This document shows, in pieces, positions 4,041 to 55,439 of a stretch of 64,000 nt of DNA. Made by a program: the position numbers and the translations under genes. How positions within the stretch are numbered: position 1 is the first letter of the stretch; each line of letters starts with the position of its first letter. Below the pieces are notes generated by a model. That model was not told where the DNA came from. It worked only from the letters and a program-made list of their open reading frames with translations, and made no database searches. Source of the DNA: a virus; the IMG/VR virus record IMGVR_UViG_3300022935_000005, positions 186,001 through 250,000 of that record; one strand, given 5' to 3'.

Positions 4041-4182
4041 GAATATTTCTGTGCTATTCCATATTTAATAGGGGAAAAGGTTTAATAATTTGGCTTCTAC
4101 TATACTAAGATCTTATCATGGTTTATACGACACAAGAAGCCCAAAAGAGAACAGCTTACAAAACTTAAGTGAGGAAGAACAT

Positions 4183-5265
4183 ATGTCAAGTAACAACAAA
4201 GATGATCAATACATTAACACACCTCAGGCGGATGACGATTTTGATTTCGTCATGGCATACGATGATGATCCTGCGGAGGGAGATGAAAGGCTCTTGCCTG
4301 AAAACTCTGCACGTTCCGCTATAAGCTGTGGTTTCATCGGAGTCGGGGGCGGAGGTGGAAAGCTTGCTAGCGCCTTTCTTGATGTAGGATTCAATAAGAC
4401 TCTACTAGTTAATACAACAGAGAAAGACCAGCCTGGCGGACTTGATGCAAACCACTTCCTATTAGTACCAGGCGCTGATGGTGTAGGTAAAGATGTCGAG
4501 TTGGGTAAGCAGGTTCTCGGTGAGAATTCAGCCATGGTTGAAGACGCTGTACGAACGCGTATTGGTCAGGTGGATTGGCTTTTCGTACTCGCTGGCGGCG
4601 GCGGAGGTACGGGTTCAGCTTGTCACGAGCTTCATTCTTCTCTATCACGTTATCTCGGGTCGGTAGAAGCTTCTGGCAATGTCGTCTATATAATTTCAAA
4701 GCCGACAGCTCAAGAGCTACTAAATCCAGCTATTAAGAAGAATTACTCTACCCTCATGTCGGATGTTGCCGATCACCCGCATATTGTGATCGACAATGAA
4801 AAACAGCTCCAGCTTCTGCGAGGCAAAGTTGGTATGCTTAATATGTTCCCTGCTGCTAATAAGAACTTTGCTAAGCTCTTTAGTCAAGTTCTCAAGCTTG
4901 CTGACGAGCACACCGAGATCCAGACTTTCGATAGTAAAGACCTAGAGCGTTGTCTAAAAGCTCCTGGTCGAATTGTTATTGGCTCTACGATCATCAAGGA
5001 TGTTAATAGAAATGACCTTGGGTCACTCGTCTATCAAGGATGCTTGCGTTCATCACCTTGCCCGACACCATCTGGTACTGCTACAACGGGTACACTACTT
5101 TTGATCGTCGACGGAAACATGGCTGCAGATCCTGATGTTAGTAGACGACTCGAATCAGCGTTCTCATATGTCGGTGGTAGAGCGGACGTCTTATTCTCGG
5201 GAGTTTATATGAAGGAAGGAATCCCTGGTTTAATTGGTCTAACGATGTTAGGTGGTTTGAAGTAA
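4183..5265 (+). CDS. tubulin/FtsZ-like GTPase
   Basis: A 360-residue protein of the tubulin/FtsZ fold. GFIGVGGGGGKLASAF at residues 50-65 matches the T1 nucleotide loop, and AGGGGGTGSA at 137-146 is the tubulin signature (GGGTGSG) that binds GTP phosphates. An acidic, low-complexity N-terminal extension of ~45 residues precedes it. I chose the ATG with GAGGAAG six bases upstream; the frame is also open back to a TTG at 4090. Phage homologues (PhuZ, TubZ) form filaments that centre or segregate DNA. The following gene is convergent and overlaps by 18 bases. Confidence 0.85.
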   Translation: MSSNNKDDQYINTPQADDDFDFVMAYDDDPAEGDERLLPENSARSAISCGFIGVGGGGGKLASAFLDVGFNKTLLVNTTEKDQPGGLDANHFLLVPGADGVGKDVELGKQVLGENSAMVEDAVRTRIGQVDWLFVLAGGGGGTGSACHELHSSLSRYLGSVEASGNVVYIISKPTAQELLNPAIKKNYSTLMSDVADHPHIVIDNEKQLQLLRGKVGMLNMFPAANKNFAKLFSQVLKLADEHTEIQTFDSKDLERCLKAPGRIVIGSTIIKDVNRNDLGSLVYQGCLRSSPCPTPSGTATTGTLLLIVDGNMAADPDVSRRLESAFSYVGGRADVLFSGVYMKEGIPGLIGLTMLGGLK

Positions 5266-5838
5266 TAGAACTTCTCTAACAAGCTTTCGAAGCCCTGATA
5301 TTTCTTTACTTTCTGTAAGAGATGTCAGGGCTTCCCAATGTTTGGGGCTTATACCCTTCGGTATTCCACCGGCCACGTCCGATATTTGGTCTATCGCATT
5401 TGCGTATTTCTGCTTCTGGCGAGGTGTGGGAGTAGAGCTTAGATTGTGTACCATGTCAGCAAGCTTTACTCTTAGAGCAAGCTGGTTGTTCAATAGCCCA
5501 ACCACATACTCGCTGTAAGGCGCGCCCTTCTCGTGCGTTAACGCTTTCACTGCGTCTATCACAACCTGACCAGCTTGTGGGTCTCGGATCGAACCTCTTA
5601 TAAATTGTTCCATCTCTTCGACACTATCAACAGTCAACCCTGGTGCGTCTTCGATACTATCATGCAAGAGTGCGACCATCTGTGCAGCGTGATCTCTAGG
5701 GTAGAATTTTCTTATTATGTTACGAACTTCTGACGGGTGAGTGAAATAATCTTCGCCTGACCTACGTTTTTGTCCTGTATGTGCCATTCGTGCAGTCGCA
5801 TATACATCTCTGAAGTCATCTCTAGTAAATTGCATCAA
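5248..5838 (-). CDS. HD-domain hydrolase, SpoT/MESH1-like
   Basis: A 196-residue HD-superfamily phosphohydrolase. The motifs of the SpoT/MESH1 group are in order: H20...RSGEDYFTHP (His34), LLHDSIEDAPG (HD at 59-60, ED at 63-64) and KLADMVHN near residue 125. Members hydrolyse (p)ppGpp or related nucleotides; there is no synthetase domain. The extreme C-terminus, LRKLVREVLLLQ, resembles the amphipathic tag found at the N-termini of many proteins in this window. Its start overlaps the end of the next upstream minus-strand gene by four bases. Confidence 0.8.
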   Translation of the reverse strand: MMQFTRDDFRDVYATARMAHTGQKRRSGEDYFTHPSEVRNIIRKFYPRDHAAQMVALLHDSIEDAPGLTVDSVEEMEQFIRGSIRDPQAGQVVIDAVKALTHEKGAPYSEYVVGLLNNQLALRVKLADMVHNLSSTPTPRQKQKYANAIDQISDVAGGIPKGISPKHWEALTSLTESKEISGLRKLVREVLLLQTT

Positions 5839-7509: not shown

Positions 7510-7594
7510 ATGTTCATTTTAAGTATATTATGTAGAATAAAGTCGTAATACATGAGATATTTAAGATAGCGTGGTATAACAATAGGAGCCGCTT

Positions 7595-8470
7595 TTGAAG
7601 AATTTGCAAGACAAGCTTTTTGAAGCAGTACTTAAACGTCTGGTGTCTTCTCGTCTTGAAGAGTGTATCATCGTCGCCGGCGAGACGCAGGGTAAAAATA
7701 TCTTAGCTAAGTCTCGAGACAGAAACTATCATGCGCGTGTCGAGATAATCAGAGACCTATTAGATGACGGGACAGAAGTCGTTTACTTTGAGGATCTTGA
7801 TACTGGGTACGCTGAAGGTATGAACTCCCACGGCTTGGGAGTGGTGAATGCTGCCCTATCCATCAGCGATGACGAGAATGCAGTGAAAGGTAAAGTGAGA
7901 TCAGACGATGGTCCCAGAATGATTCAAGCCTTAAAGCATTCCAGCATAGACGATGCTGTCAAGTCTCTTGTCGGTTATAAGGGCGGCATTAAAGGTCATA
8001 CTTTCGTAGGGACTCCAGACGCAGTTTACAGTATAGAAATGTCATCCGAACACACGCCTGTCATTAATAAGCTTGACCCAACAACAGGTTTCGACGTTCG
8101 AACCAACCACGGTAAAGATCACCATGGTGCTGGGTACACTCCTGACAGACGCCCAAAAGATTACATGTCTTCTAAGATTAGAAAGGCTCAAGCAGAAGTG
8201 GAGCTAGCTGGAGTCAATGATTTTGATGAAGTCGCTCCTGCTTTAGCGAAGCAACACTTTGATCACGACTCAAATGATAACATGCTTCGTAGAGTACCAG
8301 ACAAAGCCGGGATGGTAACGACGAGTCAAGTGGCGATGCATCTTCCAAAAAGAGAGTTCGTATTCTACTACTTCCCAAACGAATGCGATTTTGAGGGCAT
8401 CGTCGATAAAACACCTGATGATTATGAACCCAAGATCAACGTTCGTGTCGTTCGCCGCGACGAGAAGTAG
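7595..8470 (+). CDS. Ntn-hydrolase, C45/acyltransferase-like, with N-terminal tag
   Basis: A 291-residue protein. From residue 24 it matches the C45/choloylglycine-hydrolase style Ntn fold: Cys24, then KSRDRNY near 39-45 (GRNxD region) and GMNSHGLGVVNAALS near 79. In this family the catalytic Cys must be exposed as the new N-terminus by cleavage. Here Cys24 directly follows RLEE at the end of an amphipathic leader (MKNLQDKLFEAVLKRLV), so removal of the leader after an L-x-E motif would activate it. Start is TTG after AATAGGAG. Substrate (an amide or peptide bond) unknown. Confidence 0.7.
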   Translation: MKNLQDKLFEAVLKRLVSSRLEECIIVAGETQGKNILAKSRDRNYHARVEIIRDLLDDGTEVVYFEDLDTGYAEGMNSHGLGVVNAALSISDDENAVKGKVRSDDGPRMIQALKHSSIDDAVKSLVGYKGGIKGHTFVGTPDAVYSIEMSSEHTPVINKLDPTTGFDVRTNHGKDHHGAGYTPDRRPKDYMSSKIRKAQAEVELAGVNDFDEVAPALAKQHFDHDSNDNMLRRVPDKAGMVTTSQVAMHLPKREFVFYYFPNECDFEGIVDKTPDDYEPKINVRVVRRDEK

Positions 8471-8514: not shown

Positions 8515-9258
8515 ATGGAAAAGAAGATTAAGAAAGTGGTGGCGTTTGATTTTGACGACACCTTGGCCGTTACGAACTCACACGTAGGGATAAGGTCTAA
8601 TTTACTCGAGAATGCTTTCACCATTGCATCTCGTCTCGGATTAGATATCGCCTCCCGAGACGAAGACTGGATCTGGGTTAACTCGACCAACTACGAGACT
8701 TTTCTGTCTTTTTCTAGTGTGTCGATATCTGATTTTGAATATGATTATTCAGAAACAATGGCAGTAGATTTAGATTCAGTGTCCCCAATCCCTTCAATGA
8801 TTATACAGTTGAAGGAATATCTCGCAGATCCCGATTGTTTGGTAATAATCTTGACGGCAAGGGCAGGCTACACTGACGTCTGGAGTCCTGTGAATAAGTG
8901 TGTAATTCCCTCCACAAACAGAGAGGGTATCGCTTCGTTCCTTAATTCACAAGGAATTATCATTCCTGATCACCACATCCATACCGTAGGTGATGTAGCT
9001 GCTGAAGGTGGTCTTACATCAGTGGCTAAGGCGAATGTTTTATCTCATTATGCGATCGCCTACCAACCTGAGGAAATCATATTTTATGATGACAGCGAGA
9101 GAAATATCGCTCGCGCGTCCAAGATACACTTGAGAGAAGGTGTAAATTCCAGGATCACGCTAAACTACGTAAAAGACGGTCATGTCGCACGTTCCGTCCA
9201 GAGCAATAAAGGGTTAAAACAGTGGTTGTACCGCATATTTAAGACTATGCTGGAGTAA
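8515..9258 (+). CDS. HAD-superfamily phosphatase
   Basis: A 247-residue HAD hydrolase. AFDFDDTLAVT at residues 10-20 supplies the catalytic Asp pair, LTARAGY motif II, and FYDDSERN motif IV. The enzyme is related to the tagged HAD protein at 14525-15073 (FDFDDTLAVT in both), but here no amphipathic tag precedes the catalytic domain. Possible roles are nucleotide 5'/3' phosphatase. A stop-start overlap of one base joins it to the next gene. Confidence 0.8.
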   Translation: MEKKIKKVVAFDFDDTLAVTNSHVGIRSNLLENAFTIASRLGLDIASRDEDWIWVNSTNYETFLSFSSVSISDFEYDYSETMAVDLDSVSPIPSMIIQLKEYLADPDCLVIILTARAGYTDVWSPVNKCVIPSTNREGIASFLNSQGIIIPDHHIHTVGDVAAEGGLTSVAKANVLSHYAIAYQPEEIIFYDDSERNIARASKIHLREGVNSRITLNYVKDGHVARSVQSNKGLKQWLYRIFKTMLE

Positions 9259-10067
9259 TGCCTGTGAAAGACCTGAGAAAACTAGTTTCCCTGCTTTTAG
9301 AAGAAGGGTACCAAAGCCATACTTTCGAGCCCGTAGTTGGTGATATTGTTGCCAATGATAACCCAAACTGTAAGCATCGAGGATCGATTGGCAGAGTCCT
9401 AACCATCCAAGCTCTGGATAATGACCAGGGAAAGACGGCGTCTTACGAATGCTTAAACTCTGGAGATGAGTGGGAAGAAGGTGATGTTTTAACAAAGACG
9501 CTCGATCAGTTGGTACCTGCTGTCTCAAAAGACTTCGCGTATCATATGACGAATGGTCTAGGCATGACTGAATCGATATATCGCCCCGGTTCCAGAGCTT
9601 TTTTTGACCTCGTAAGAGAGTTTCGAGTTTTGTCTCACAGAGGAGCCTACTCACCCTCCTACTTCGAGTCGTACTATCTTTTTGAGACTGACTTGGGCGA
9701 ATATGGTATGTATGATGGTCACCCGGTACCGCTTGACTGGCCAATGCCAGATGAAGACCTTTTCGAAGCAGAATATAAGGGCCGGGATGTCGACCTGAAT
9801 TCTCCTATGAGATCTTCTGGGCCTAAGAAGTACAAGGTCTACACCAAGAATGATAAGGGTAACGTTATCCAAGTTAACTTTGGAGACGCCAAGGGTGGGT
9901 TATCAGCAAAGATGGACGATGATGATGCCCGAGCGAACTTTGCTTCTCGGCACAATTGTGATAGTAAAGCAAAGGAAGATAAGACCAAGCCAGGCTACTG
10001 GTCCTGTCGGCTGCCCAGGTACTGGAAAGAGCTTGGGTTTAAGAAGAATAGTTATAGATTTTGGTAG
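9258..10067 (+). CDS. tagged protein with conserved phage C-terminal domain
   Basis: A 269-residue protein. The first 16 residues (MPVKDLRKLVSLLLEE) form an amphipathic helix ending in an L-x-E motif, like the tags of its neighbours. The last ~90 residues (KKYKVYTKNDKGNVIQVNFG ... ARHNCDSKAKEDKTKPGYW region) match a domain I know as a C-terminal module of many large marine-phage proteins, with a conserved Cys pair and RxW residues. Middle part unknown. Probably packaged or structural (inference). Confidence 0.6.
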   Translation: MPVKDLRKLVSLLLEEGYQSHTFEPVVGDIVANDNPNCKHRGSIGRVLTIQALDNDQGKTASYECLNSGDEWEEGDVLTKTLDQLVPAVSKDFAYHMTNGLGMTESIYRPGSRAFFDLVREFRVLSHRGAYSPSYFESYYLFETDLGEYGMYDGHPVPLDWPMPDEDLFEAEYKGRDVDLNSPMRSSGPKKYKVYTKNDKGNVIQVNFGDAKGGLSAKMDDDDARANFASRHNCDSKAKEDKTKPGYWSCRLPRYWKELGFKKNSYRFW

Positions 10068-10073
10068 GGGATT

Positions 10074-10856
10074 ATGAGACCATTTAAACAAGTCACGATA
10101 TCAGAGGGCGTTTTTGTTAGGGAGTTTTCTGGCGATGTAGACTCAGAAGAGCTCGTCTGGCACCGTGATCAAGAAGACAGACTTATTACGGTGACCGAGT
10201 CTGCTGGCTGGAAGATTCAGCGTGATAATGAGATGCCCGTGGAGATGAAGTCTGGAGATCAATTCTTTATTCCTGCCCTCGAGTGGCACAGGGTCATCAA
10301 GGGCACCGGAAGTTTGTTGATTGAAGTCGACACCAAGGCCGCGCATCCAAGACAGTACGGGGCATCTCAGGGCTCGAAGCGTGATAAACAGCTTGACCAG
10401 ACCAAGAAGGATCTAGAGAAAGCAAAGCAACTTCGTAAGGACGGAAAATCAAAGCAAGCTGATGAGCTTGAGAAAAGAGCATATGCCCGCCGGGACCGCA
10501 TGGAAAAGCAACAAAGAGAAAAGAAAGGGTTCGAAAACACTCCTCGTTCCGATACCAAGAAAGAGTCAATCGATAACGACGATGCAGTTTTAAGAGCTTT
10601 TGTGGAAGAGCTTCTTCTTTCTGAGAAGAAGACGAAAATGTCTAAGAAGACAGAAAAGGCTTTGGAGAAAAAAGCGAAAGAAAAGGGATACACTCTTGGA
10701 TCTGTCAAACAGGAATACAGGAAGGGTCTCGGCGCTTATTATAGCAGCGGGTCTCGAAAAGGAATGACTGCACATCAGTGGGCCATGGCAAGAGTCAATT
10801 CAGCGACTCCCTCTAAGTCTTGGGCTGTTGTTAAGAAATCGAAGGCAAAGAAATGA
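10074..10856 (+). CDS. cupin-like domain, internal tag, DUF5824-like C-terminus
   Basis: A 260-residue three-part protein. Residues ~20-90 form a cupin-like beta-barrel (VWHRDQEDRLITV ... GDQFFIPALEWHRVIKG) seen in marine myophages. Residues ~100-165 are highly charged and probably coiled coil. Then DDAVLRAFVEELLLSEKK is a tag-like helix with L-S-E, and the C-terminus (KQEYRKGLGAYYSSGSR, AHQWAMARVNS) is a small domain found as a module in phage head or tail proteins. The order suggests a polyprotein cut at the internal tag. Confidence 0.6.
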   Translation: MRPFKQVTISEGVFVREFSGDVDSEELVWHRDQEDRLITVTESAGWKIQRDNEMPVEMKSGDQFFIPALEWHRVIKGTGSLLIEVDTKAAHPRQYGASQGSKRDKQLDQTKKDLEKAKQLRKDGKSKQADELEKRAYARRDRMEKQQREKKGFENTPRSDTKKESIDNDDAVLRAFVEELLLSEKKTKMSKKTEKALEKKAKEKGYTLGSVKQEYRKGLGAYYSSGSRKGMTAHQWAMARVNSATPSKSWAVVKKSKAKK

Positions 10857-11221
10857 AAGTTACAAAAACACATTTGAAGCAGCTGATTGAAACAGCGGTT
10901 TTAAAGGAACAAGTTAGGGGATTGCTCATAGAGCGGATGTCTGTGGCAACAGTTAGTGACATCACAAGATTTAGACCATCGATAGAAGAGTGGGCTGAAG
11001 TTCTTGTGGATGAACTACAGAAAAAAGCTGAGAGGATGAAGGGGCTTGATGATAAAAGGCGGAATAGCATTATTACTATGCTGGTTGATGCAGTCGCCAA
11101 GTCTTTGATCAGCTCGACAGGTTCGATGACGGTCTCTAGTCTTGAGCGACAGAAAAAAGACAAAGAAGAAGAACAATACAAAAAGATGAGAGACTCAAGG
11201 CGTTACGGATATAGCGGATAA
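10853..11221 (+). CDS. small tagged protein
   Basis: A 122-residue helical, charged protein beginning MKVTKTHLKQLIETAVLKEQ, a variant of the MKITKxQLRRIIKEE tag that dominates 52-56 kb. L-K-E at the tag end fits the (L/I)-x-E pattern. The remainder is helical with a Lys/Glu-rich end. It overlaps the previous gene by four bases. Confidence 0.65.
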   Translation: MKVTKTHLKQLIETAVLKEQVRGLLIERMSVATVSDITRFRPSIEEWAEVLVDELQKKAERMKGLDDKRRNSIITMLVDAVAKSLISSTGSMTVSSLERQKKDKEEEQYKKMRDSRRYGYSG

Positions 11222-11227
11222 AAGACA

Positions 11228-11497
11228 ATGAGAATCACAAGACGACAACTTAGAGACATTATCCGTGAAGCTCTCGAGCTTGATGAAGACGTCCGCAAGC
11301 GCGGAGACGAGTGGTGTGCTTATGTCGATGACAAGCTGACCAAGGCAGAGAAAGAAAACAACCCCAAGAAATATAAGGGTAAGAAGGTCGGAAGTGTCCA
11401 GCGAACCAAGTCAGGCAAAATCAGGATGAAGGCTCGTGCTTGCTACAAATCAAAGAAAAAGGCCAACAATGCAATGGCCGCAGCAATGATGGGATAA
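11228..11497 (+). CDS. small tagged basic protein
   Basis: An 89-residue protein with the tag MRITRRQLRDIIREALEL. The remainder is basic (PKKYKGKKVGSVQRTKSGK, CYKSKKKANNA) with two Cys residues, consistent with nucleic-acid binding. Function unknown; the operon position between tagged genes suggests a packaged protein. Confidence 0.65.
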   Translation: MRITRRQLRDIIREALELDEDVRKRGDEWCAYVDDKLTKAEKENNPKKYKGKKVGSVQRTKSGKIRMKARACYKSKKKANNAMAAAMMG

Positions 11498-11500
11498 CAA

Positions 11501-11845
11501 ATGTCTACTAGCCCGGAGCTTTACACATATCGAGCGTTCGTTAGGAAAGTGTACGATGGGGATACGGTCACAGTTGACGTCGATCTCGGGTGGTCAGTTG
11601 TGCTCAAAGCTCAAAAGATCCGCCTCGTCCGCATTAATGCTCCAGAAGTTCGTGGAGAACAGCGCACGGAAGGTCTAAAATCTAGAGACGCTTTACGAGA
11701 CAAAATCGGAAACAAGTGGGTAAAGATCAAAACTGAAAAGGATAAGAAGGGTAAATTCGGCCGATGGCTCGGAGAGATCTGGCTTGAAGACGAGTGCGTC
11801 AATGATTGGCTTCTCAAGGAAGGTCATGCTGAGGAGTATAAATGA
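11501..11845 (+). CDS. thermonuclease-like nuclease (SNase fold)
   Basis: A 114-residue staphylococcal-nuclease domain. KVYDGDTVTVDVDLG carries the calcium-binding Asp residues, IRLVRINAPEVRG the first catalytic Arg, RTEGLKSRDAL the catalytic Glu region, and KKGKFGRWLGEIW the second catalytic Arg. Short SNase proteins are common in marine phages. No signal peptide or tag, so it probably acts in the cytoplasm. Overlaps the next gene by four bases. Confidence 0.85.
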   Translation: MSTSPELYTYRAFVRKVYDGDTVTVDVDLGWSVVLKAQKIRLVRINAPEVRGEQRTEGLKSRDALRDKIGNKWVKIKTEKDKKGKFGRWLGEIWLEDECVNDWLLKEGHAEEYK

Positions 11846-13137
11846 GTCTACTGCTAGAATACAGTAAGTACAATCCTGTGATAAGGGATAGAAGCTATAT
11901 CACTGAAGTTTTAGGGATTAAAGTCCCTCTGTACGAGTCGTATGAGTACTATACTCCAGAGCTACAGTCAAGGATTATTCGAGAGCACTTGCTTCTTGAG
12001 GGCTTCTTTGACGGTTTAAAGAGACTGAAGGATGACGCTCTATTATTCGGTAAATCTCTTAAGCAGATAATCACTAAACCTGACCTCATTGGATCGTTTG
12101 TGGCGGCCCTCAATAAGATGGTACTTAACAAGATGATTAGACCGATAGGGTCTTTTCTTAAGATGGTCAAGGAGAAGCTTACTGAGTTGGGGGCGGACAA
12201 GTTTCCGACGTTCATAAAGTTTGCAGACGGCTTGCTTACAAGCCTCAATAAGATCTTAGAAAAAGTGAATGGTCTAGATGGGTGGAAGAAAGCTGTGGGA
12301 GCGATGAGCTTAGCATTATCCATGAAATACATCTGGAACGAGATCGGTGAGCTGATCGAAGAAGGTCAAAAGAAGATTGGAGAAGTGGTACCAGCTTTTG
12401 ACATAATCAAAGCAGCAGCGGAAGGAGCTGCTGAGGCCGCAGGCGATAAACTGGAGAAAGCCAAGGAGGCTGTAAAGGGTCTTTTGAGCTGGCTGAAAGA
12501 GCAGATAGTAGAGAAAGCCGGTGAATTTATAAAAGAGAAGCTTAAGGGTCTAGCTACGTCTGTTTTAGGGTCTGCGATATCAGGTGGTGTTAAAAAAGTC
12601 TGGGACACCCTTACAGCTCTTTACGGAGGAGCGAAATTTGTTATGGATACGTTAAATCCAGCGTTCAAGCGTTTTACACACAAAGTGACTGCCGAAAGTA
12701 CACTTCGTGAATACGTAAGAGAGCTTTTATCTGAGCAAGCCAGTTACGGGTCAGCAGACGGCCAGTCTCGGATTGTCAAAGTCAATAACATGAAGATTCG
12801 TATAGACTTAGAAGATCTAGACTACAGAGCCACTCAGCACTCTAGAGAGCGTCAGCACCGACATAAGGATTCTTCCGGCCGCGGATTCAAGATATCGGGT
12901 GATTCCATCCAGAGAGCTATTGACGCTGCAATTGGTAACATCATAAACGACTATGCCAATGGCGAACTCAGGAACAACGAGCGGTTCTTGATCGCCGCGA
13001 AAACAGGGAAAGGTGACCCGCTGAATATTGTTGGCGCTCTGAATATGCAGAAGGGTCCTGACGATTTTGCAGTTATTACAGTAATGAGAAAGCAGAATTT
13101 TATGTCTGATCTGCCGACGTACGAGGTGAGTCTATGA
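11842..13137 (+). CDS. multidomain helical protein with internal tag and nuclease-like C-terminus
   Basis: A 431-residue protein. Residues ~50-285 are long amphipathic and Ala-rich helices (possibly membrane-interacting or scaffold-like). Near residue 291 lies STLREYVRELLSEQ, an internal copy of the LLREYIRELLxE tag. After it, a ~130-residue domain has HSRERQHRH, a Ser/Thr-rich turn and AVITVMRKQN, which resembles the BECR (barnase/EndoU/colicin/RelE-like) ribonuclease pattern. A two-part protein matured at the internal tag is my inference; nuclease identity is tentative. Confidence 0.5.
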   Translation: MSLLLEYSKYNPVIRDRSYITEVLGIKVPLYESYEYYTPELQSRIIREHLLLEGFFDGLKRLKDDALLFGKSLKQIITKPDLIGSFVAALNKMVLNKMIRPIGSFLKMVKEKLTELGADKFPTFIKFADGLLTSLNKILEKVNGLDGWKKAVGAMSLALSMKYIWNEIGELIEEGQKKIGEVVPAFDIIKAAAEGAAEAAGDKLEKAKEAVKGLLSWLKEQIVEKAGEFIKEKLKGLATSVLGSAISGGVKKVWDTLTALYGGAKFVMDTLNPAFKRFTHKVTAESTLREYVRELLSEQASYGSADGQSRIVKVNNMKIRIDLEDLDYRATQHSRERQHRHKDSSGRGFKISGDSIQRAIDAAIGNIINDYANGELRNNERFLIAAKTGKGDPLNIVGALNMQKGPDDFAVITVMRKQNFMSDLPTYEVSL

Positions 13138-13442
13138 AGCTGTTATCATGGCTCAAACATCGATTAAGCCACAAACTAGAACATTTCTCCCTAGAAAATC
13201 TTAAACGTTTCCTGAAAGAAAACGGTCTCGCGTTTGTTGTTATATTTCTAGCGTGGGAGATTATCGAGGATGTACTTTTCCCGATCCTCTTTACCGTTTT
13301 AGGAACATACGTCCACCCTGTGTTTTACGCAGGTGTTCCAGCAGCTTGGCTCCTTTGTTTACACTGGCTAGCAGTACCACTGATGTGGGGTGCATGGGTA
13401 AAGATTAGAGGAAAAAGGAAAGACAATGAGCCTTCTTCGTGA
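13134..13442 (+). CDS. membrane protein
   Basis: A 102-residue protein with a charged amphipathic first ~30 residues followed by two strong transmembrane helices (around 32-57 and 64-90) and a basic C-terminus. It is coupled by four-base overlap to the previous gene and overlaps the next by 17 bases. Its place in the tagged-enzyme operon is notable; function unknown. Confidence 0.6.
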   Translation: MKLLSWLKHRLSHKLEHFSLENLKRFLKENGLAFVVIFLAWEIIEDVLFPILFTVLGTYVHPVFYAGVPAAWLLCLHWLAVPLMWGAWVKIRGKRKDNEPSS

Positions 13443-13950
13443 ATACATCAAAGAGATCCTAAATGAGGGTGTTGAGTTCCATGAGCTTGATTCGCCCTTA
13501 ACCTATAATAGATCACGTAACGTGAAGCGCTTGGCATATTGTGATACATCAGTCACCGAACCGCCAGAAGGTCATGACACATATTTCACGGAATATCAGA
13601 GGATGGAAAGATATGGAAAAACCGGCCGGCGTCTGAAGAAGCCACGAAAAGGTGAGCTAATCCCAGGAGTTTCGAATGTTTGTGTTATCGGCTTTCTTGA
13701 CTATCACCACTACGGTAAAACTGCAGAAGGAAAGGACATGTGGTACATTGACTACATGAAGACCCGGGGTGATTCAACAGGTCAAGGCGTTGCCAGTAAA
13801 CTCATAGATGAATTCTTTGAGAGGTACGTCGATCCAGACGGTGGGTACGTTCACTTCGGCAAGATGATGAGAAAAGAGATCGGGCATCTTAAAGACAAGA
13901 TGGCCGAGAAGTACCCTAATGCAGAAGTAATCGGGGCTGTGAATTATTGA
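13426..13950 (+). CDS. tagged GNAT-like acetyltransferase
   Basis: A 174-residue protein beginning with the tag MSLLREYIKEILNE. The segment WYIDYMKTRGDSTGQGVASK fits GNAT motif A (strand, then R/Q-x-x-G-x-G/A loop binding the acetyl-CoA pyrophosphate) followed by helix LIDEFFERY. Substrate is unknown. It starts a run of eight genes that all open with nearly the same peptide and each overlap the next by about four bases. Confidence 0.6.
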   Translation: MSLLREYIKEILNEGVEFHELDSPLTYNRSRNVKRLAYCDTSVTEPPEGHDTYFTEYQRMERYGKTGRRLKKPRKGELIPGVSNVCVIGFLDYHHYGKTAEGKDMWYIDYMKTRGDSTGQGVASKLIDEFFERYVDPDGGYVHFGKMMRKEIGHLKDKMAEKYPNAEVIGAVNY

Positions 13951-14528
13951 TGAGACTACTTCGCGAATACATAAGAGAGCTGCTGAAAGAATCTGTTGAT
14001 CCCAAGATCATGTCAATGATCGATCGTGCAGAAAAGGCTGGCTTCAAGGTCGTTGTTAGGAGTGGTTATACGGCTGTGTACGACCCTAATATCGATGTTT
14101 CAGACTGGTATGAGGGCTATATTGGTCCAGCAAACAGGGTAGCAGGTATATCTTGGAACCCAAGTCCGGGAGCACATGGGCAACCTTGTTCTGGCGCCAA
14201 GGAAGTATCAGTTTCCGGCGCCAAAGAATTCGGGATGGGTCCATTAGCTTATGACGTTGCGATCGAAGCTTCGGGTGGTCTAATGTCTGACAGGCTGGAG
14301 GTTTCGAAAGACGCAAGAAATGTGTGGAAACATTACATGAAGAAGCGACCTGACGTGATAATCCAACAACTTGACAACCTGAAAAACGAGCTCACCCCAG
14401 AAAGAGAAGACAACTGTGATCATCCAGATGGATTTTCGGTTAGCTCACCACTTACAAAAATGTACTCTAAGATTGGAACGCCAGTCATGGATGAGCTGCG
14501 ACGACGAGGGATGTTGGAAGAACAATGA
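13950..14528 (+). CDS. tagged protein, YDVAIE family, paralogue 1
   Basis: A 192-residue protein starting MRLLREYIRELLKE. It is one of three paralogues in this operon (also 15070 and 17508) that share SVDPKIMSM(I/V)DR, GPLAYDVAIEASGGL, a DVIIQQLD segment and a final GTPVMDELRRRGML. The family occurs widely in marine phages as I recall, without a firm function; an acyltransferase-like fold is possible. The first ~55 nucleotides are almost identical among the three, pointing to recent duplication. Confidence 0.65.
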   Translation: MRLLREYIRELLKESVDPKIMSMIDRAEKAGFKVVVRSGYTAVYDPNIDVSDWYEGYIGPANRVAGISWNPSPGAHGQPCSGAKEVSVSGAKEFGMGPLAYDVAIEASGGLMSDRLEVSKDARNVWKHYMKKRPDVIIQQLDNLKNELTPEREDNCDHPDGFSVSSPLTKMYSKIGTPVMDELRRRGMLEEQ

Positions 14529-15073
14529 GACTACTTCGTGAGTATATAAGGGAAATCTTGAGTGAGAACAAGCTGCGTGTCTTCGATTTTGATGACACAC
14601 TTGCTGTCACTGATTCCATGATTATACTTACTAAAGCGACGGGTGAGCAGATAAAGCAGACTCCTGGAGAGTGGGCCATATACATACCTGAACCCGGCGA
14701 TGAGTTCGATTACAGCGAGTTCGGCGGCGAGTTAATGAACCCTCGAGAAATCAAAGACTACATGAATATCCTCCGCCGCGTTTTGGGAGCAGGTACAGAC
14801 GGTCGCAAAGCTGTGATCTTAACTGCTCGTGCTGAAGTTGCTCGACAGGGCATCATTAACTTTTTACAAGACATTGGTCTCAACGTAAACGACATTGAGA
14901 TTGTAACGCTTGGTGAATCCGACCCACAATTTAAGGCGCGATGGATTGAAGACAAGATAAATAGCGGTTATGACGATGTGTATTTTGTCGATGACTCTGA
15001 TAAAAATATAGCGGCTGTGCAAGCGCTAGCTGTGAAATATCCCAATATAAAGTTGAGGACACAACTGGTATGA
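14525..15073 (+). CDS. tagged HAD-superfamily phosphatase
   Basis: A 182-residue HAD hydrolase fused directly to the tag MRLLREYIREILSE. The catalytic motif RVFDFDDTLAVTDS follows after only three residues, LTARAEV is motif II and FVDDSDKNI motif IV. The catalytic domain is a homologue of the tag-less protein at 8515-9258, so the tag is an addition to an otherwise complete enzyme. Likely a nucleotide or polynucleotide phosphatase. Confidence 0.78.
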   Translation: MRLLREYIREILSENKLRVFDFDDTLAVTDSMIILTKATGEQIKQTPGEWAIYIPEPGDEFDYSEFGGELMNPREIKDYMNILRRVLGAGTDGRKAVILTARAEVARQGIINFLQDIGLNVNDIEIVTLGESDPQFKARWIEDKINSGYDDVYFVDDSDKNIAAVQALAVKYPNIKLRTQLV

Positions 15074-15687
15074 AACTATTGCGCGAATACATAAGAGAGC
15101 TACTGAAAGAATCTGTTGACCCCAAGATCATGTCAATGATTGACAGAGCTGAAGCTGCAGGTTACAAAGTCAGACTGTTTGTGGTCCCAAAGCAGGGAGG
15201 ATCTGTCAGGTTGGTTGAACCCGGTGACAAACCTCTACGACTGGACGGCAAAAACGCAATAGGTTCGGTTGAATGGAGAAAACCAAAGTTCAGCGATCAT
15301 GGCAATTGCTCAGGCGGACAAAGCGTAGGTTGGTCTGAAGCTGATGGTGGATTCGGGCCGCTGTTATATGATGTTGCGATCGAAGCATCAGGCGGTTTAA
15401 TGCCCGATAGATTCGAAGTATCCGGTGAGGCAGAGGCAGTGTGGGATAGATACATGAACTCTCGTTCTGATGTTATTGTTCGCCAGCTGGATATCTTACC
15501 TGACTACGAAGAACCACAGATCACCCCCGACAATCCCAACGATGATTGCAGCCAAGTTCCAGCGCACGACATGCTGAAGGACAAGTGGCATACATCTTCC
15601 CTCAGCAAGATATACAGCAAGTCAGGTACTCCCGTTATTGATGAACTGATCAAGCGCGGCATGTTGATAGATAATAGGACAGTGTGA
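15070..15687 (+). CDS. tagged protein, YDVAIE family, paralogue 2
   Basis: A 205-residue relative of 13950-14528, with the same tag (MKLLREYIRELLKE), the shared VDPKIMSMIDRAEAAGYK, GPLLYDVAIEASGGL and C-terminal GTPVIDELIKRGML. The middle is more divergent, with acidic insert DNPNDDCSQ. Conservation of two Cys residues (GNCSGG and DDCSQ) across the three copies may mean a structural or metal site. Function unknown. Confidence 0.65.
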   Translation: MKLLREYIRELLKESVDPKIMSMIDRAEAAGYKVRLFVVPKQGGSVRLVEPGDKPLRLDGKNAIGSVEWRKPKFSDHGNCSGGQSVGWSEADGGFGPLLYDVAIEASGGLMPDRFEVSGEAEAVWDRYMNSRSDVIVRQLDILPDYEEPQITPDNPNDDCSQVPAHDMLKDKWHTSSLSKIYSKSGTPVIDELIKRGMLIDNRTV

Positions 15688-16049
15688 TGAATCTACTGCG
15701 CGAGTACGTAAGGGCTTTGCTTACTGAAAAGACTATCGCCATTGGCCAATGTTATCCCCATGCGATCAAGATGGCTCAACAGTCATCTGATGAAGAGTGG
15801 GATGATCTAGACAAGTTCAAGGTGGTCCACGGAAAAGTGACGAACAAATGGAATGATGAGTCATATGAGCATGCTTGGGTTGAAAAGGGTGACATGATAT
15901 TCGACTGGCAAACACACGTAACAAAGCCAGAAGGGATTCCAAAAGCTGTGTACTACGATAACTTCCAACCTGAAGCTTATGAAGAATACACTGCTGAAGA
16001 AGCTATAATCAATTGTACTAAGTCAGGGCAAGCGGGGCCTTGGAGATGA
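15687..16049 (+). CDS. tagged papain-like cysteine hydrolase candidate
   Basis: A 120-residue protein with tag MNLLREYVRALLTE. After it the pattern C22YPHA...VVHGKV...HAWVEKGDMIFDWQ suggests a Cys-His-Asp catalytic set as in small papain-like/transglutaminase folds (C, then HAWxE, then D). The domain begins only seven residues after the tag. Peptidase or deamidase activity is inferred from the motif spacing only. Confidence 0.5.
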   Translation: MNLLREYVRALLTEKTIAIGQCYPHAIKMAQQSSDEEWDDLDKFKVVHGKVTNKWNDESYEHAWVEKGDMIFDWQTHVTKPEGIPKAVYYDNFQPEAYEEYTAEEAIINCTKSGQAGPWR

Positions 16050-16552
16050 ACCTGCTTCGCGAATACATAAGAGAGTTACTGACCGAGGAATCTACTACTG
16101 TTTCTCTACACAGAGGGTCAACTGAAGATTACTTCAGAGTGAATTTCAGCGTGGACGGTAGAATGGTTGGTTATGCAGAGGTCAACTCAACTCGTAGGTA
16201 CTCGAACTGCCAAGAAAATGTTATGGAACTTGAACAATCTCCAGAGTACATTGAAGCCAAAGAACGGCACGAGGCGACAAGCAAGTGGAGCTGGTCACCA
16301 AAGATGTACGTTACGAATAACGTCTGGATCCCCAACGAAGCTGACAGAGGGAAAGGTTACGGTAAGTTGATATATCAGGCAGCCATTGACCAGGCAATTC
16401 AATACGCAAGGTCTAGCGGTGGTGTGTTTATCGGTTCGGACGCATGCGATTCTGCCGGTTCCACCTCAGCTGATGCGGGCCGTGTATGGAGTTCACTGGG
16501 ACAACAGTTCGGTGCTAGCTCAGGCCAACTGATATTCGTGAGGACAAACTAA
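16046..16552 (+). CDS. tagged GNAT acetyltransferase
   Basis: A 168-residue protein with tag MNLLREYIRELLTE. The segment VWIPNEADRGKGYGKLIYQA is a clear GNAT motif A (R-G-K-G-Y-G). A Cys/Ser-rich C-terminal part is unlike standard GNATs. A TTG six bases upstream is possible, but the ATG matches the tag consensus of the neighbours. Target unknown. Confidence 0.7.
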   Translation: MNLLREYIRELLTEESTTVSLHRGSTEDYFRVNFSVDGRMVGYAEVNSTRRYSNCQENVMELEQSPEYIEAKERHEATSKWSWSPKMYVTNNVWIPNEADRGKGYGKLIYQAAIDQAIQYARSSGGVFIGSDACDSAGSTSADAGRVWSSLGQQFGASSGQLIFVRTN

Positions 16553-17511
16553 TGAACCTACTCCGCGAGTACATAAGAGAGCTGCTGTTAAAAGAAGTCA
16601 AGTCCTCTGAACTTCCATGGGCAGAACTGTCTGATATTTTACGTAAAAAATTTCCTGGGTTTGGCGAAGAAGTAGAGATGCCGGCAGGAGGGAAACGTAA
16701 GCCTTTCGAGATAGAGCAGAGGACGGTGGCAGATAGGGGTCCCCAGAGATTGGCTAGCTTTACCATCGGATATGGTGACTTCTCCTACGATAAGCCTGCC
16801 ACTAAATTCTCTGACGCTGATTTAGACGCTGTCGTTGATGAGATCGATAAGTGGGCTGCTAATTTTGGATTACATGTGGCAAGAGACCAACTCGCCATGA
16901 ATAGCAATATCGCAATGCTCAAAGTCGGGCTGATGGATCTGGAGACAGACGAAGTCGAGAAACCAGCGAAACTATATCATGTAACAGATCCTGTGACAGC
17001 TGAGACGATTCTCTCGCAAGGTTTAGAACCTCAGTCAGCTAGACGGCGAGGCAAGGCTGGAAAAGCAGGTGATATGATGGGTGCAGCAGGGAGAAGTTAC
17101 CCTGGCAGAATATTCATGTTCACAGATGCACAGACTGCCCTCGCTAGAGCTTCGAAGACTGCAAAGATTATGCATAGGCTTTCCTTTGTTAGGGATGTCT
17201 TAGAAGACGAAGCAGAGTACGAGAAGGGCGCCTCTCAAACAATCGGTAAGTCAGAAACCCCAGTTGTTTTAGAGATTGACGGATCTGCTGTCGGTAAAGT
17301 AATGGCAGATCCAGATTTTGAGATGGGTAAGGGTGCCGTATTCTCAACAGATGCAGTTCCACCATCTGCGATATCGAAGTATAAAGATGTAGACAGGGGC
17401 AGCTTCGAATACGATTGGCGAGATAACTATAAAGTAAGAGAGATGCTCAGAAGTGATTATGGCGGCACAATGTCAAAAATCAAAGCATGGGAGCAGAGCC
17501 AAGGATTATGA
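16552..17511 (+). CDS. tagged ADP-ribosyltransferase-fold candidate
   Basis: A 319-residue protein with tag MNLLREYIRELLLKE. In the C-terminal half, KLYHVTDPVTAETILSQGL, then YPGRIFMFTDAQTALARA and PVVLEID resemble the H-Y strand, loop and third motif of ART-type or RNA 2'-phosphotransferase-like folds (Y/LYHVT... IL..GL.P). T4 Alt, an ADP-ribosyltransferase, is packaged and cleaved in the head, which makes this call attractive, but I cannot identify the catalytic Glu. The N-terminal ~140 residues are unknown. Confidence 0.5.
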   Translation: MNLLREYIRELLLKEVKSSELPWAELSDILRKKFPGFGEEVEMPAGGKRKPFEIEQRTVADRGPQRLASFTIGYGDFSYDKPATKFSDADLDAVVDEIDKWAANFGLHVARDQLAMNSNIAMLKVGLMDLETDEVEKPAKLYHVTDPVTAETILSQGLEPQSARRRGKAGKAGDMMGAAGRSYPGRIFMFTDAQTALARASKTAKIMHRLSFVRDVLEDEAEYEKGASQTIGKSETPVVLEIDGSAVGKVMADPDFEMGKGAVFSTDAVPPSAISKYKDVDRGSFEYDWRDNYKVREMLRSDYGGTMSKIKAWEQSQGL

Positions 17512-18059
17512 AACTACTACGCGAATACATAAGAGAGCTACTGAAAGAATCTGTTGATCCCAAGATCATGTCAATGGTTGATAGACTCGAAGCGGACGGG
17601 GGATATGTTAGAATTAGCAAGAACGCTGCAAGAGTTATTATTGATGGACACAATGTCGCGTTTGTCCAATTCGAAACACCGGGAGTTTGGTCCAAAGGTG
17701 AGTGTTCGGGCGCGAAAATAGTATCTTACTCTGAAGCGGAAAGAAGTTACGGTCCTTTAGCATATGATATCGCCATTGAAGCAACAGGCGGACTTGCACC
17801 AGATCGCGAAGAAGTTTCAGGAGATGCAAAAAACGTTTGGTCTTACTACGAAAAGAATAGACCTGATGTAACAATCGCCCAGCTAGATGATGAAAACAAT
17901 ATGTTGACCCCTGACGGTGGAGACAATTGCAATCAGAAGTCTGCCATGCTGGATGCAGAAAGTTACCACTTTGATAGATCACCGCTCAGTAAGGTATACA
18001 GGAAGTCAGGTACGCCCGTTATAGATGAGTTGCGGAAACGAGGGATGTTGAAGGAATGA
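17508..18059 (+). CDS. tagged protein, YDVAIE family, paralogue 3
   Basis: A 183-residue relative of 13950-14528 and 15070-15687: tag MKLLREYIRELLKE, then SVDPKIMSMVDRLEADGG, GPLAYDIAIEATGGL and GTPVIDELRKRGML. I place the start at the ATG overlapping the previous stop rather than at an upstream ATG, because the tag then begins exactly as in its paralogues. Function unknown. Confidence 0.65.
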   Translation: MKLLREYIRELLKESVDPKIMSMVDRLEADGGYVRISKNAARVIIDGHNVAFVQFETPGVWSKGECSGAKIVSYSEAERSYGPLAYDIAIEATGGLAPDREEVSGDAKNVWSYYEKNRPDVTIAQLDDENNMLTPDGGDNCNQKSAMLDAESYHFDRSPLSKVYRKSGTPVIDELRKRGMLKE

Positions 18060-18904
18060 ATCTACTTCGTGAATACATAAAAGAGGTATTAAGCGAGGTA
18101 ACAGCTCTTCCTCAGGAATACTTCACTGCAATCGATGCCGCTGTGTCTTCTTCAAATTTTTGGGAAGAGCCGAATTCTCAAGATGATATAGACTACTATG
18201 AGTCTAAGGCAGGAGGGGTCATGGCTACTCCTGCCGCAGAGGCTCTTTCTGAGGCTCTAGAAGGGGCTATGGAAGAGGTTGGTCTAGACATGGACATATT
18301 GGTTAGGTCACACGATACAGATGATCTGATGGGAATGTCTCTACATCCCGAGCATCCTGCTTGGCCTAATAGATGGCTCATCGACGCGAAGTGGTACGTC
18401 TCAAAAGAACGCCCGGGAAGAAGCACTATTGACATAGAGATGATGACATCAGAGGATGAAGACAACATTTCTCAAGCTCTGAACACCAGTGAGCTAGTCC
18501 GTCATATTACAGCAACAGTGAGACACGAGCTAGTACATTATCGACAGATGAAAAAACAGGCTGCCCATAAGGGGCTGGATGACACCGCCGCTTTTGAGGA
18601 AATGCTGAAAGATCCCCGCCAGATTCCGCCGGGCTCCGCGGATGATCCGGAGTGGCAGAAGAAGTACTTGAGTTCTCATATAGAGATCGATGCTCACGCT
18701 CACGATGCCGCCGAAGACTTGATCGCTGTATACTCCGCTAAAGAGATTGACGCAATACTCAGTAAAAAGGTTGATCTGTCTGATGATAGACTGCCCAACG
18801 CTGTTAAGCACTATATCGAGGTTCTTGGGCCCGACGATAAATCAACTCGTAAGTTCATGAGTAAGCTTTATACACAAGTCGAAAAGATGAAAAGTAGAAG
18901 ATAA
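18056..18904 (+). CDS. tagged zinc metallopeptidase
   Basis: A 282-residue protein with tag MNLLREYIKEVLSE. VRHELVHYRQMKK in the middle is an HExxH zinc site, and the downstream SHIEIDAHAHDAAEDL may give the third ligand. An acidic ~110-residue N-terminal part precedes the site. Likely a gluzincin-like peptidase; substrate unknown. It ends the tight run of tag-coupled genes. Confidence 0.65.
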   Translation: MNLLREYIKEVLSEVTALPQEYFTAIDAAVSSSNFWEEPNSQDDIDYYESKAGGVMATPAAEALSEALEGAMEEVGLDMDILVRSHDTDDLMGMSLHPEHPAWPNRWLIDAKWYVSKERPGRSTIDIEMMTSEDEDNISQALNTSELVRHITATVRHELVHYRQMKKQAAHKGLDDTAAFEEMLKDPRQIPPGSADDPEWQKKYLSSHIEIDAHAHDAAEDLIAVYSAKEIDAILSKKVDLSDDRLPNAVKHYIEVLGPDDKSTRKFMSKLYTQVEKMKSRR

Positions 18905-18933
18905 CAGGAATACTTAACACTAAAGGTAGTACA

Positions 18934-19572
18934 ATGGACGTTCTAAGACAGTTTATAAGACAAATAATTCTTGAGCAAATAGAGCAACCCGCTCCTGAAG
19001 CCTCTTTACCAAAGGGTGAATGGGTTTCTGTTGAGGCAGGAGACCCTATGAGATCTGTTATCGTTGACGACCTTTATGATATGCTGCAGTCGACATACGC
19101 TCCAATTGGTGGTCACTTTAAAGTCAAGAAGCCGTCCGACCTTGAAAGGTACAGGTTCTGGGTAGTTGCAGACATCGACGAAGATCCTGAACCTGACGTC
19201 GCTTTATTTGCGAAGCCTGATATCGGTGGTACGAAGATGGGCGCCGCCGCGAATGATGGTACAGCTGCAGCAGCTAACGCTTACAAAGACAAATCTTCTG
19301 AGTTGAGAGCTGGCGGCTCTATTGGCTCTGGCTCGAACTGGTGGGGTGAAGTTAGCGGCAAGCCCGCTTATGCGATGCTTAAGCGTGGTGCGCCAGCAGT
19401 CGAGGATGAAGCTGTAGTAATGCAGTTACTTGCTGGGGATGATATTATCTTTCACGGAGCTCATCCTGACCCGAATGCTCCAGCCCTTTTTAAGAGCGTG
19501 AACGGGTGGTATACCAAGAAGTTCGGAGCAAAGTCATCTACCAAGATTATTCTTGGGTCTCCGAGTTTGTAG
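18934..19572 (+). CDS. tagged protein, marine-phage GNAT-like family
   Basis: A 212-residue protein with divergent tag MDVLRQFIRQIILEQ. The rest (DDLYDMLQSTYAPIGGHFKV, DIDEDPEPDVALF, NGWYTKKFGA) follows a family I recognise from marine myophages, where it is annotated as hypothetical or N-acetyltransferase-like. Conserved Gly-rich and Asp-rich turns are present. A short intergenic gap and its own AAGGTAG site precede it. Confidence 0.6.
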   Translation: MDVLRQFIRQIILEQIEQPAPEASLPKGEWVSVEAGDPMRSVIVDDLYDMLQSTYAPIGGHFKVKKPSDLERYRFWVVADIDEDPEPDVALFAKPDIGGTKMGAAANDGTAAAANAYKDKSSELRAGGSIGSGSNWWGEVSGKPAYAMLKRGAPAVEDEAVVMQLLAGDDIIFHGAHPDPNAPALFKSVNGWYTKKFGAKSSTKIILGSPSL

Positions 19573-52128: not shown

Positions 52129-52298
52129 AGCCGTGGACTTCCGTTAACTTTGCGCGGAGTCCATTATATTTAAAAGCATGGTGGGATTGCATGGTCTGAG
52201 CCCACCGTAAAATAAAATGAGACTGGACATAAGCACTTGCCTACGCATCCTGTTGAGCCCAGTCAGATTTTCGATGATTTAGACTTAGGAGTTCCAGA
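52129..52298 (+). promoter_or_regulatory. promoter and leader region of the tag array
   Basis: A 170-base gap. TATATT near 52166 follows GTTAAC at 52145 (16 bases), and GGTGGG...CCCACC downstream (52181-52206) forms a leader hairpin. A 21-codon frame (MRLDISTCLRILL) at 52217 overlaps nothing; I do not call it as a gene. Confidence 0.45.
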
Positions 52299-52526
52299 AT
52301 GAAAATCACAAAGAACCAACTTAGAAGAATTATCCGGGAAGAGCGCGCTAAGCTTGCACGTGGCAGAGCTGTTAACGAACAGTACTCACCGGGTCCCGAG
52401 GAGCGCCGCGCACGGTCCGCGATCGACCAGATTGTCACAGACTTTCTAGAGAGCGATGAGGGTGATCCGGCGTTAATTGCAGAGATTCTGAGAGAGATTG
52501 CCAACGACGTCGACGAAGAAATGTAG
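52299..52526 (+). CDS. tagged small protein, MKITK class
   Basis: A 75-residue protein with the full tag MKITKNQLRRIIREERAKL. After the tag comes an acidic, helical domain (RRARSAIDQIVTDFLES) ending DVDEEM. I-R-E and E-R within the tag fit the (I/L)-x-E pattern. First of a ten-gene array. Confidence 0.65.
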   Translation: MKITKNQLRRIIREERAKLARGRAVNEQYSPGPEERRARSAIDQIVTDFLESDEGDPALIAEILREIANDVDEEM

Positions 52527-52541
52527 TGGTCTGGGGGCGGC

Positions 52542-53078
52542 ATGAGAATCACAAAGAGACAACTTAGAAGAATTATCCGAGAAGCGATTGATGTTGTTGA
52601 TAGAGACACTGGCGAAGTTATGCGCTTTTCTGATGATAGTAGCGACAGCATGGCAGATCTTCCTGAAAAAGCCTGGCCTGACCTGGTAAAGCGGCTTGGG
52701 TTGAGCCCTAAAGACGTGGGTCTTGATGCTGCCGGTAATCAAGGATTTGAGCTAGACCAGAATGAGTTTATACGCCTTGACAACGAGACTCGTGAAAAAG
52801 CCTACAACCGTAAGATGAAAAAACAGGCAGCTGCCTACAAGGCTGATCGGGAAAGATTGGATATCGACAATCTCCTCGAGAGACTCCGCTATTGGGCACA
52901 AGACGCAGCGTCTGATTACATGGCTGACAATCCAGACACCGACCTGCAGGATATCGCCTATGACCTTGCGGACGCTTGGCAATTCGCGTTCGAAGAAGAT
53001 GAACGAGAAGAACTGTTGTGGCACTTTGACGGTGACCTTAACGACCTTAAGATTTTCGCAGCGGAGAGTATGGGATGA
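52542..53078 (+). CDS. tagged protein, MKITK class
   Basis: A 178-residue protein, tag MRITKRQLRRIIREAIDV (I-R-E/A). Rest acidic, helical, with EEDEREELLWHFDGD. A motif of charged coiled coil is visible around 85-105. Function unknown. Confidence 0.65.
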   Translation: MRITKRQLRRIIREAIDVVDRDTGEVMRFSDDSSDSMADLPEKAWPDLVKRLGLSPKDVGLDAAGNQGFELDQNEFIRLDNETREKAYNRKMKKQAAAYKADRERLDIDNLLERLRYWAQDAASDYMADNPDTDLQDIAYDLADAWQFAFEEDEREELLWHFDGDLNDLKIFAAESMG

Positions 53079-53371
53079 AAATCACAAAACGTCAACTACG
53101 AAGAATCATTAAGGAAGAGAAAGCTCGCATTTTGGCTGAGCAACAACTTGATCCTCAAGTTGCCGCCCAAGCTCTTGCGGAGCTAAAGAACGATGGGTGG
53201 TTTAGTATGATACAAACAGCGGCTACTGACGCAGCTGGTGACCTTGAGCAGCTCAGTGATCAGGTTGATGTCAAGTTAATGGACGCCGGCCTGAACGAGC
53301 TTGCCGTAGATATCAGAAGTGTTGTTGAGCTATTGGACAAGATTAGACAAGCAGCGTACGGTCAGAGGTAA
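53075..53371 (+). CDS. tagged protein, MKITK class
   Basis: A 98-residue protein with tag MKITKRQLRRIIKEEKARILAEQ (L-A-E). Helical thereafter (ALAELKNDGWFSMIQTAAT). Four-base overlap with the previous gene. Confidence 0.65.
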   Translation: MKITKRQLRRIIKEEKARILAEQQLDPQVAAQALAELKNDGWFSMIQTAATDAAGDLEQLSDQVDVKLMDAGLNELAVDIRSVVELLDKIRQAAYGQR

Positions 53372-53372
53372 C

Positions 53373-53480
53373 ATGATGAAAAAAAAGCTAATGGAGCTGC
53401 AAAAGCTCGCTAGAGATATTCGCGTGAATGTCCAACCGACAGCTGAGCAATCAGCAAGCAAACGAGGGAGTTTCGAATGA
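53373..53480 (+). CDS. very small basic protein
   Basis: A 35-residue frame (MMKKKLMELQKLARDIRV) between two tagged genes, overlapping the next start by four bases. It resembles a shortened tag-like helix. Supported by position and coupling only. Confidence 0.4.
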   Translation: MMKKKLMELQKLARDIRVNVQPTAEQSASKRGSFE

Positions 53481-54805: not shown

Positions 54806-54806
54806 A

Positions 54807-55124: not shown

Positions 55125-55130
55125 GACAAG

Positions 55131-55424: not shown

Positions 55425-55439
55425 GACTAGGAGAACAAA

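Follow-up and report, generated by a model that had tools for sequence, protein, structure and literature searches.

The window, a stretch of 64,000 nt within a virus record of 280,913 bases, contains at positions 7595–8470 (+) an open reading frame for a protein of 291 amino acids starting at TTG, with a ribosome-binding-like AGGAG (recognised by eye) at 7584–7588 (+), 6 nt 5' of the start codon. The first 23 residues (7595–7663, +), MKNLQDKLFEAVLKRLVSSRLEE, were delimited from the ORF list together with the secondary structure and pLDDT values of an AlphaFold2 model and appear to form a leader, or propeptide, in which a helix is predicted at residues 4–17 and is followed by a flexible stretch, residues 16–19 being poorly defined (pLDDT < 50). 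This leader of 23 residues, where T4-type CTS propeptides have 10–20, has an internal L-x-E (LFE, residues 8–10). It is of a type, LLEAVLxRL, common to the subclade to which the window enzyme belongs, which suggests that this shared sequence may have a function of its own. It ends in L-E-E (7655–7663, +), which directly adjoins Cys24 (7664–7666, +) and which we consider a predicted prohead-protease motif (L/I-x-E) with cleavage expected 3' of 7663, on the basis of the motif as given in excerpts of PMC9026906, of a family census and of an offset control. Cys24 itself would be the Ntn nucleophile and the N-terminus of the mature protein, as judged from its invariance (76 of 76 rows) and from its position in the VIA-align comparison, and the remainder of the frame (7664–8467, +) would constitute the mature C45/AAT-type Ntn-hydrolase domain. 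Three further residues are candidate parts of the active site: Asp42 (Cys+18; 7718–7720, +) and Asn171 (Cys+147, within an RTNHG motif; 8105–8107, +), both invariant in 76 of 76 rows, and Arg232 (Cys+208; 8288–8290, +), present in 75 of 76. By their spacing from the Cys, their candidate counterparts in IAT (acyl-CoA:isopenicillin N acyltransferase) would be Asp121, Asn246 and Arg310, respectively.

The assignment of the domain combines an NCBIfam match, the AlphaFold2 model, Foldseek and VIA-align. The NCBIfam profile C45_proenzyme matched from residue 25 (E = 1.5e-9), its 37.7 bits lying below the curated cut-off of 85, and the Pfam AAT profile matched weakly (E = 0.078; 13.1 bits, below the cut-off of 23.2). 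Since both cut-offs were missed, the product is best read as a distant C45/AAT relative and not as a curated member. Among the 76 rows of the family alignment, 66 matched C45_proenzyme at E ≤ 1e-3 and 33 matched AAT at 0.01. Searches against PDB sequences gave no Ntn match, only flavodoxin matches at E of about 0.9, and searches against PHROGs returned nothing useful. The AlphaFold2 model, computed from an alignment of 75 sequences with the query counted, had a pLDDT of 91.7 and a pTM of 0.88, and its first core strand spans residues 24–31, with Cys24 as the first residue. The best Foldseek match was the IAT precursor 2x1c (7.9e-10), and choloylglycine hydrolase, penicillin V acylase, NAAA and acid ceramidase were also matched. 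In VIA-align, the first aligned pair placed residue 24 opposite residue 103 of mature IAT (2x1d), 126 of human NAAA (6dxx), 143 of acid ceramidase (5u7z), 1 of penicillin V acylase (3pva) and 2 of bile acid hydrolase (2bjf), with Z values of about 16–20 for these named enzymes; the top row was an uncharacterised protein (3gvz, Z 21.2). In IAT, NAAA, acid ceramidase, penicillin V acylase and bile salt hydrolase, the Cys aligned with Cys24 is the residue that starts the mature chain. The alignment with known nucleophiles and the start of the strand thus place Cys24, in the model, where the nucleophile of an Ntn fold belongs, yet in the precursor this residue is internal. The nearest named solved folds act on acyl-amide bonds, cleaving or transferring acyl groups, and by the model the phage enzyme would be related to them.

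Relatives were collected from four scans of viral contigs, from the Chryseobacterium phages MA9V-1 and MA9V-2 and from the window's own record; as three of the scans contributed the best 80 of 273, of 432 and of 224 relatives, the census covers part of the family. A total of 252 ORFs matched the family profile, five of which were dropped because the contig start cuts them before the Cys, and the remaining 247 reduced to 135 unique sequences, which fell into 76 clusters at 85% identity, contigs obtained repeatedly under different locus ids being merged by this step. The residues preceding the Cys were [LI]xE in 62 clusters, [VMF]xE in 9, Met in 3 and xA in 2. Position P1 (-1) is Glu in 71 of the 76 clusters, P2 (-2) is free (Asn in 30 clusters, eleven other residues in the remainder), and family-wide conservation stops at -3, beyond which the leaders diverge; the number of residues ahead of the Cys ranges from a few to more than 600. 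An [LIVMF]xE ending at -1 was found in 71 of the 75 clusters whose Cys is preceded by three or more residues, compared with 0–15% at the other offsets from 2 to 25, and this offset control rules out a chance motif before Cys24. The higher percentages at offsets 9, 10 and 14 are mostly due to leaders that have a tag-like LxE further upstream, and those at 15 and 20 to mixed sequences. At the level of sequence, the conserved [LIVMF]xE|C has the pattern of a protease site positioned, to the exact residue, ahead of the catalytic Cys. An earlier note on this DNA had described Cys24 as directly following R-L-E-E at the end of the leader and had named structure prediction as a means of confirming it in the active site; residues 20–24 do read R-L-E-E-C, the census extends the motif to most of the family, and the predicted strand and the alignment with Ntn nucleophiles agree with such a place. 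Two pattern-based scans of genome contigs for cellular relatives returned 43 and 148 pattern stretches, none of which was confirmed by tblastn, and neither a cellular origin nor a cellular control set could be upheld from the genome contigs scanned.

Several variants of the family are informative. The three Met-Cys clusters (L254, L064 and L251) begin with ATG-TGT and have no leader, and they are nested among LxE members in the tree, with low support for their exact placement; an LxE leader and a Met-Cys start would be two ways of exposing the same Cys. At the other extreme, the Cys of 16 clusters is preceded by 70 to 665 residues, and [LIVMF]xE|C is kept in all 16. In the fused protein L091, the Ntn strand of the model begins at Cys342, a little beyond a low-confidence stretch (324–336). 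Some of the 16 clusters belong to ORFs of 1000–1600 residues, and the Ntn domain lies in very large fused ORFs of 961–1597 aa (L072, L193, L204, L209, L210 and L217); among the five scanned (L072, L193, L209, L210 and L217), Zeta_toxin exceeded its cut-off in L193, L209 and L210, CTP_transf_like and AAA_33 were additionally found in L209, CTP_transf_like fell just under the cut-off in L072, and L217 (961 residues) had no match. These large fused ORFs are likely to be head-cargo polyproteins. In the group of L071, L081, L085 and L067, the leader is tag-like and contains one LxE, while another LxE directly adjoins the Cys, as in MKNLIRSILNE...IHE|C. Other leaders are very short, with at most 7–9 residues from the upstream stop (L247, L235, L249 and L027), which is too short for a known capsid-targeting sequence, so that targeting by the leader is not general. 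The two xA|C members (L028 and L250) form one clade, in which the large record G006 (265,895 bp) had no match to S77, gp23 or Terminase_6N; this would fit the use of a different head protease. A second protease type may lie behind the xA|C of L028 and L250, although inspection of the ORFs in 200 kb of G006 (ten stretches), by eye and with a tag pattern, did not uphold it.

The record to which the window belongs encodes a T4-type prohead protease of the S77 family (PF03420; 1.3e-26, 90.6 bits against a cut-off of 27) and a gp23-type capsid protein (3e-67), and among the ORFs around these genes are some that look by eye like a portal gene and a scaffold gene. A candidate cleavage site of the major capsid protein (MCP) of the same phage, VLRE|S, was read by eye, the site being located by its match to the place of the T4 cut. 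At the matching place, 18 MCPs inspected by eye carry [LI]xE in 17 cases and MxE in one; the site is identical in G000, G001 and G002 and likewise in W01 and W02, and, as the enzymes of G001 and G002 are identical to that of the window and W01 and W02 are close relatives, these records are not independent in either the capsid-site or the co-occurrence counts. Phage MA9V-1 has FLNE at both its MCP site and its enzyme site (FLNE|CVIAAK), and a prohead serine protease is annotated in its genome paper (PMC10537231), whose main text makes no mention of mass spectrometry or LC-MS. For T4, excerpts of PMC9026906 state that gp21 cuts after L/I-X-E, and those of PMC9026906 and PMC7411985 that CTS leaders of 10–20 residues target cargo and are removed by gp21. 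In T4 IPIII, according to PMC9026906, an Asp at residue 10 of its targeting sequence prevents processing and leaves targeting intact.

Among 65 records (G000 and 64 others), gp23 exceeded the cut-off in 27 and S77 in 30, both did in 26 and neither in 34. The only record with gp23 and no S77 match was G028, where the capsid gene is a fragment at the contig end. Of the 34 records with neither, 26 are shorter than 90 kb and may miss the head genes simply by size, and eight exceed 100 kb (G005, G006, G007, G010, G014, G018, G021 and G022); seven of these eight, all except G006, nevertheless encode an [LIVMF]xE|C enzyme, the largest being G014 (213,924 bp; IKE|C). S77 and gp23 belong to one and the same T4-type head gene block, so their co-occurrence mainly shows that the family lives in T4-type phages.

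Taken together, these results make it probable that the enzyme is a head-cargo zymogen whose leader is removed in trans by the S77 protease during head maturation, exposing Cys24 at the N-terminus. As the leader ends exactly at the motif of the phage's own capsid protease, it would probably be head building that switches the enzyme on. According to this model, an Ntn (C45/AAT-type) amide hydrolase or acyltransferase would be made with a short N-terminal leader that probably brings it into the prohead and that sets an S77 (T4 gp21-type) cut, L-x-E|, directly before the catalytic Cys. Upon prohead maturation, the protease that trims the major capsid protein would also remove the leader, Cys24 would become N-terminal with its free amino group available for catalysis, and the mature enzyme would stay in the head and be delivered with the DNA. 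Sequence and model show the fold, the place of Cys24, the motif with its conservation across the family and the presence of the protease and capsid genes in one phage; the cleavage by S77, the packaging, the inactivity before cleavage and the delivery into the host are inferences, the packaging being deduced from the motif and from its setting among the tagged ORFs of the window. Weighing against the model are (i) the three Met-Cys and two xA|C clusters among the 76, which indicate that unmasking by a prohead protease is not universal, (ii) the leader of the window enzyme, which is unlike the local tag pattern, and (iii) the 34 of 65 records without S77 or gp23.

The earlier note had assigned the motif ahead of Cys24 to a head protease, and this agrees with its T4-type L/I-x-E form and with the S77 protease (PF03420) encoded by the same phage; it had further seen in the arrangement a safety switch guarding against toxic or lytic effects, a part that is not supported. 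In Pfam, PHROGs, NCBIfam and PDB sequences, the Ntn domain showed no relationship to a toxin or a lysin. Moreover, Met aminopeptidase is expected to unmask the Met-Cys members at once, so that activity in the producing cell seems to be tolerated there; as these members are expected to be active from their synthesis on, the enzyme would not be generally too harmful for the producing cell, and the three Met-Cys clusters argue against a need for gating. A simpler reason may account for the arrangement: for a head-targeting leader at the N-terminus to be compatible with a free N-terminal Cys, cleavage has to occur immediately ahead of that Cys.

Other ways of unmasking, or of not unmasking, the Cys have to be considered. 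The precursor could cut itself in cis before the Cys like cellular C45 enzymes, with [LI]xE needed for that reaction. The matched NCBIfam profile is indeed named "C45 family autoproteolytic", the titles of related structures describe them as precursor, uncleaved or self-activated (2x1c, 6dxw, 5u84 and 5u7z), self-cleavage at this bond is common among Ntn enzymes, and the Glu at -1 is nearly invariant. Nevertheless, the fixed -3 and -1 with a free -2 reproduce the pattern of the gp21 motif, and this motif resembles the candidate capsid sites of the phages themselves. The phage leaders, besides, do not contain the stretch of about 90 positions that precedes the Cys in the C45_proenzyme profile (the match begins at profile position 93), the Met-Cys members need no autocleavage, and the xA|C members form a single clade with a large record, G006, free of S77 and gp23 matches. 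We therefore regard autocleavage as rather unlikely, and the trans cleavage by S77 as the reading to be preferred.

That a host protease or trimming from the N-terminus removes the leader of a cytoplasmic enzyme, without the head protease, seems very improbable to us: generic trimming needs no conserved L/I-x-E, and the motif equals the candidate MCP site in the same phages despite their different leaders, even if the Met-Cys members imply that unmasking in the cytoplasm is possible and some leaders amount to only a few residues. That the protein is not processed at all, Glu23-Cys24 being conserved for the fold and the enzyme being inactive or using an internal Cys, is hardly credible when its candidate catalytic residues show little or no variation, the Met-Cys members have no leader at all and the aligned Cys starts the mature chain in IAT, NAAA, acid ceramidase, penicillin V acylase and bile salt hydrolase. 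Extending the preferred reading, cleavage in trans by the prohead protease, to the whole family, we lean towards a widespread and apparently phage-borne Ntn family that gave up self-activation and has its nucleophile unmasked in trans inside the prohead by the capsid-maturation protease, in some phages from giant cargo polyproteins with kinase-like and nucleotidyltransferase-like domains, so that head assembly would accomplish both the packaging and the activation of an injected enzyme.

Among Ntn hydrolases, self-unmasking of the nucleophile or the loss of Met alone is the rule. IAT (C45; Pfam AAT, NCBIfam C45_proenzyme), the best Foldseek match through 2x1c, is autoproteolytic with a long propeptide; the phage enzyme shares with it the Ntn fold and the place of the Cys, whereas its leader is short and unrelated and terminates in the motif of a prohead protease, and the sequence match stays under the curated cut-offs. 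NAAA and acid ceramidase, N-acylethanolamine and ceramide amidases, respectively, are self-activated animal enzymes (the title of 5u7z reads self-activated) and are the closest named enzymes by VIA-align (Z of 19.1–20.4 for mature NAAA and 18.8 for acid ceramidase), although the phage enzyme has no sequence-level match to them in PDB. Penicillin V acylase and bile salt hydrolases are Ntn hydrolases whose Cys is residue 1 or 2; their Z values are lower (about 16–17), and they are not known to be associated with a capsid protease. The internal head proteins of T4 and Alt, which the phage enzyme would resemble, have an N-terminal propeptide of 10–20 residues cut by gp21 at L/I-X-E and are delivered with the DNA, but in the excerpts of PMC9026906 and PMC7411985 considered here this cleavage is described as the removal of a targeting sequence and not as the creation of a catalytic residue. 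In the giant phages phiKZ and SPN3US, head proteins including ejection proteins are also cut after Glu in a short motif; there, however, the protease is of the S80 type and the motif A-X-E or S-X-E, and the corresponding sections of PMC5694885 describe no Ntn enzyme. Literature searches found no open-licence paper coupling a prohead protease or capsid with an N-terminal nucleophile enzyme, joining Ntn hydrolases with jumbo phages, or joining isopenicillin N acyltransferase with bacteriophage genomes, and PMC9026906 and PMC7411985 each contain the word "zymogen" a single time, within the title of a cited work on the T4 protease. Both gp21 cargo and Ntn enzymes are well known, and it is their coupling that appears to be new. 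If the capsid protease unmasks the nucleophile, virion maturation would be an enzyme-activation step, and a cleavage motif at the Cys would predict which head proteins are timed enzymes. Our results further suggest that large phages carry sizeable sets of head cargo, some of it as polyproteins, with enzymes acting at the moment of infection.

As for the setting in the window, 23 ORFs, all on the plus strand, carry one of two amphipathic tags, of the LREYIRELLxE or the MKITKxQLRRIIxEE type, and lie at 9243–19569, 52278–55898 and 61264–61761. They constitute a probable head-cargo set, defined by a tag pattern drawn up from the same window; the leader of the Ntn enzyme falls outside the strict pattern, and its ORF is therefore not among the 23. 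Some of the tagged ORFs have weak acetyltransferase-like or HAD-like matches. Domains similar to those of the large fused ORFs occur in the window as separate genes, zeta-like at 55926–56690 and nucleotidyltransferase-like at 36866–38803. Furthermore, in L091, L144, L155, L159, L160 and L173 the Ntn domain is fused to a preceding stretch that looks, by eye, like part of the window gene at 9258–10067, which is two genes downstream of the Ntn gene. In the xA|C lineage, with RTA before the Cys, the ORF L028:3983-6115 fuses the Ntn domain to a PolyA_pol head domain (1.7e-14). Three proteins of G006 (L309 16650–17144, L311 10288–10692 and L313 19357–19776) share a repeated N-terminus, [LI]IRLA[YH]Q[NQ]P..RP[HQ][IL]LP[ML]L, which is perhaps the targeting tag of another phage group. 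Upstream of the Ntn gene, the window encodes at 5248–5838 (-) a protein with an HD_4 domain that may be ppGpp hydrolase-like and that ends in a C-terminus similar to the tags, GLRKLVREVLLLQTT, and at 4090–5265 (+) a protein with a GGGGGTGS motif (noted by eye) as in tubulin/FtsZ-like phage proteins.
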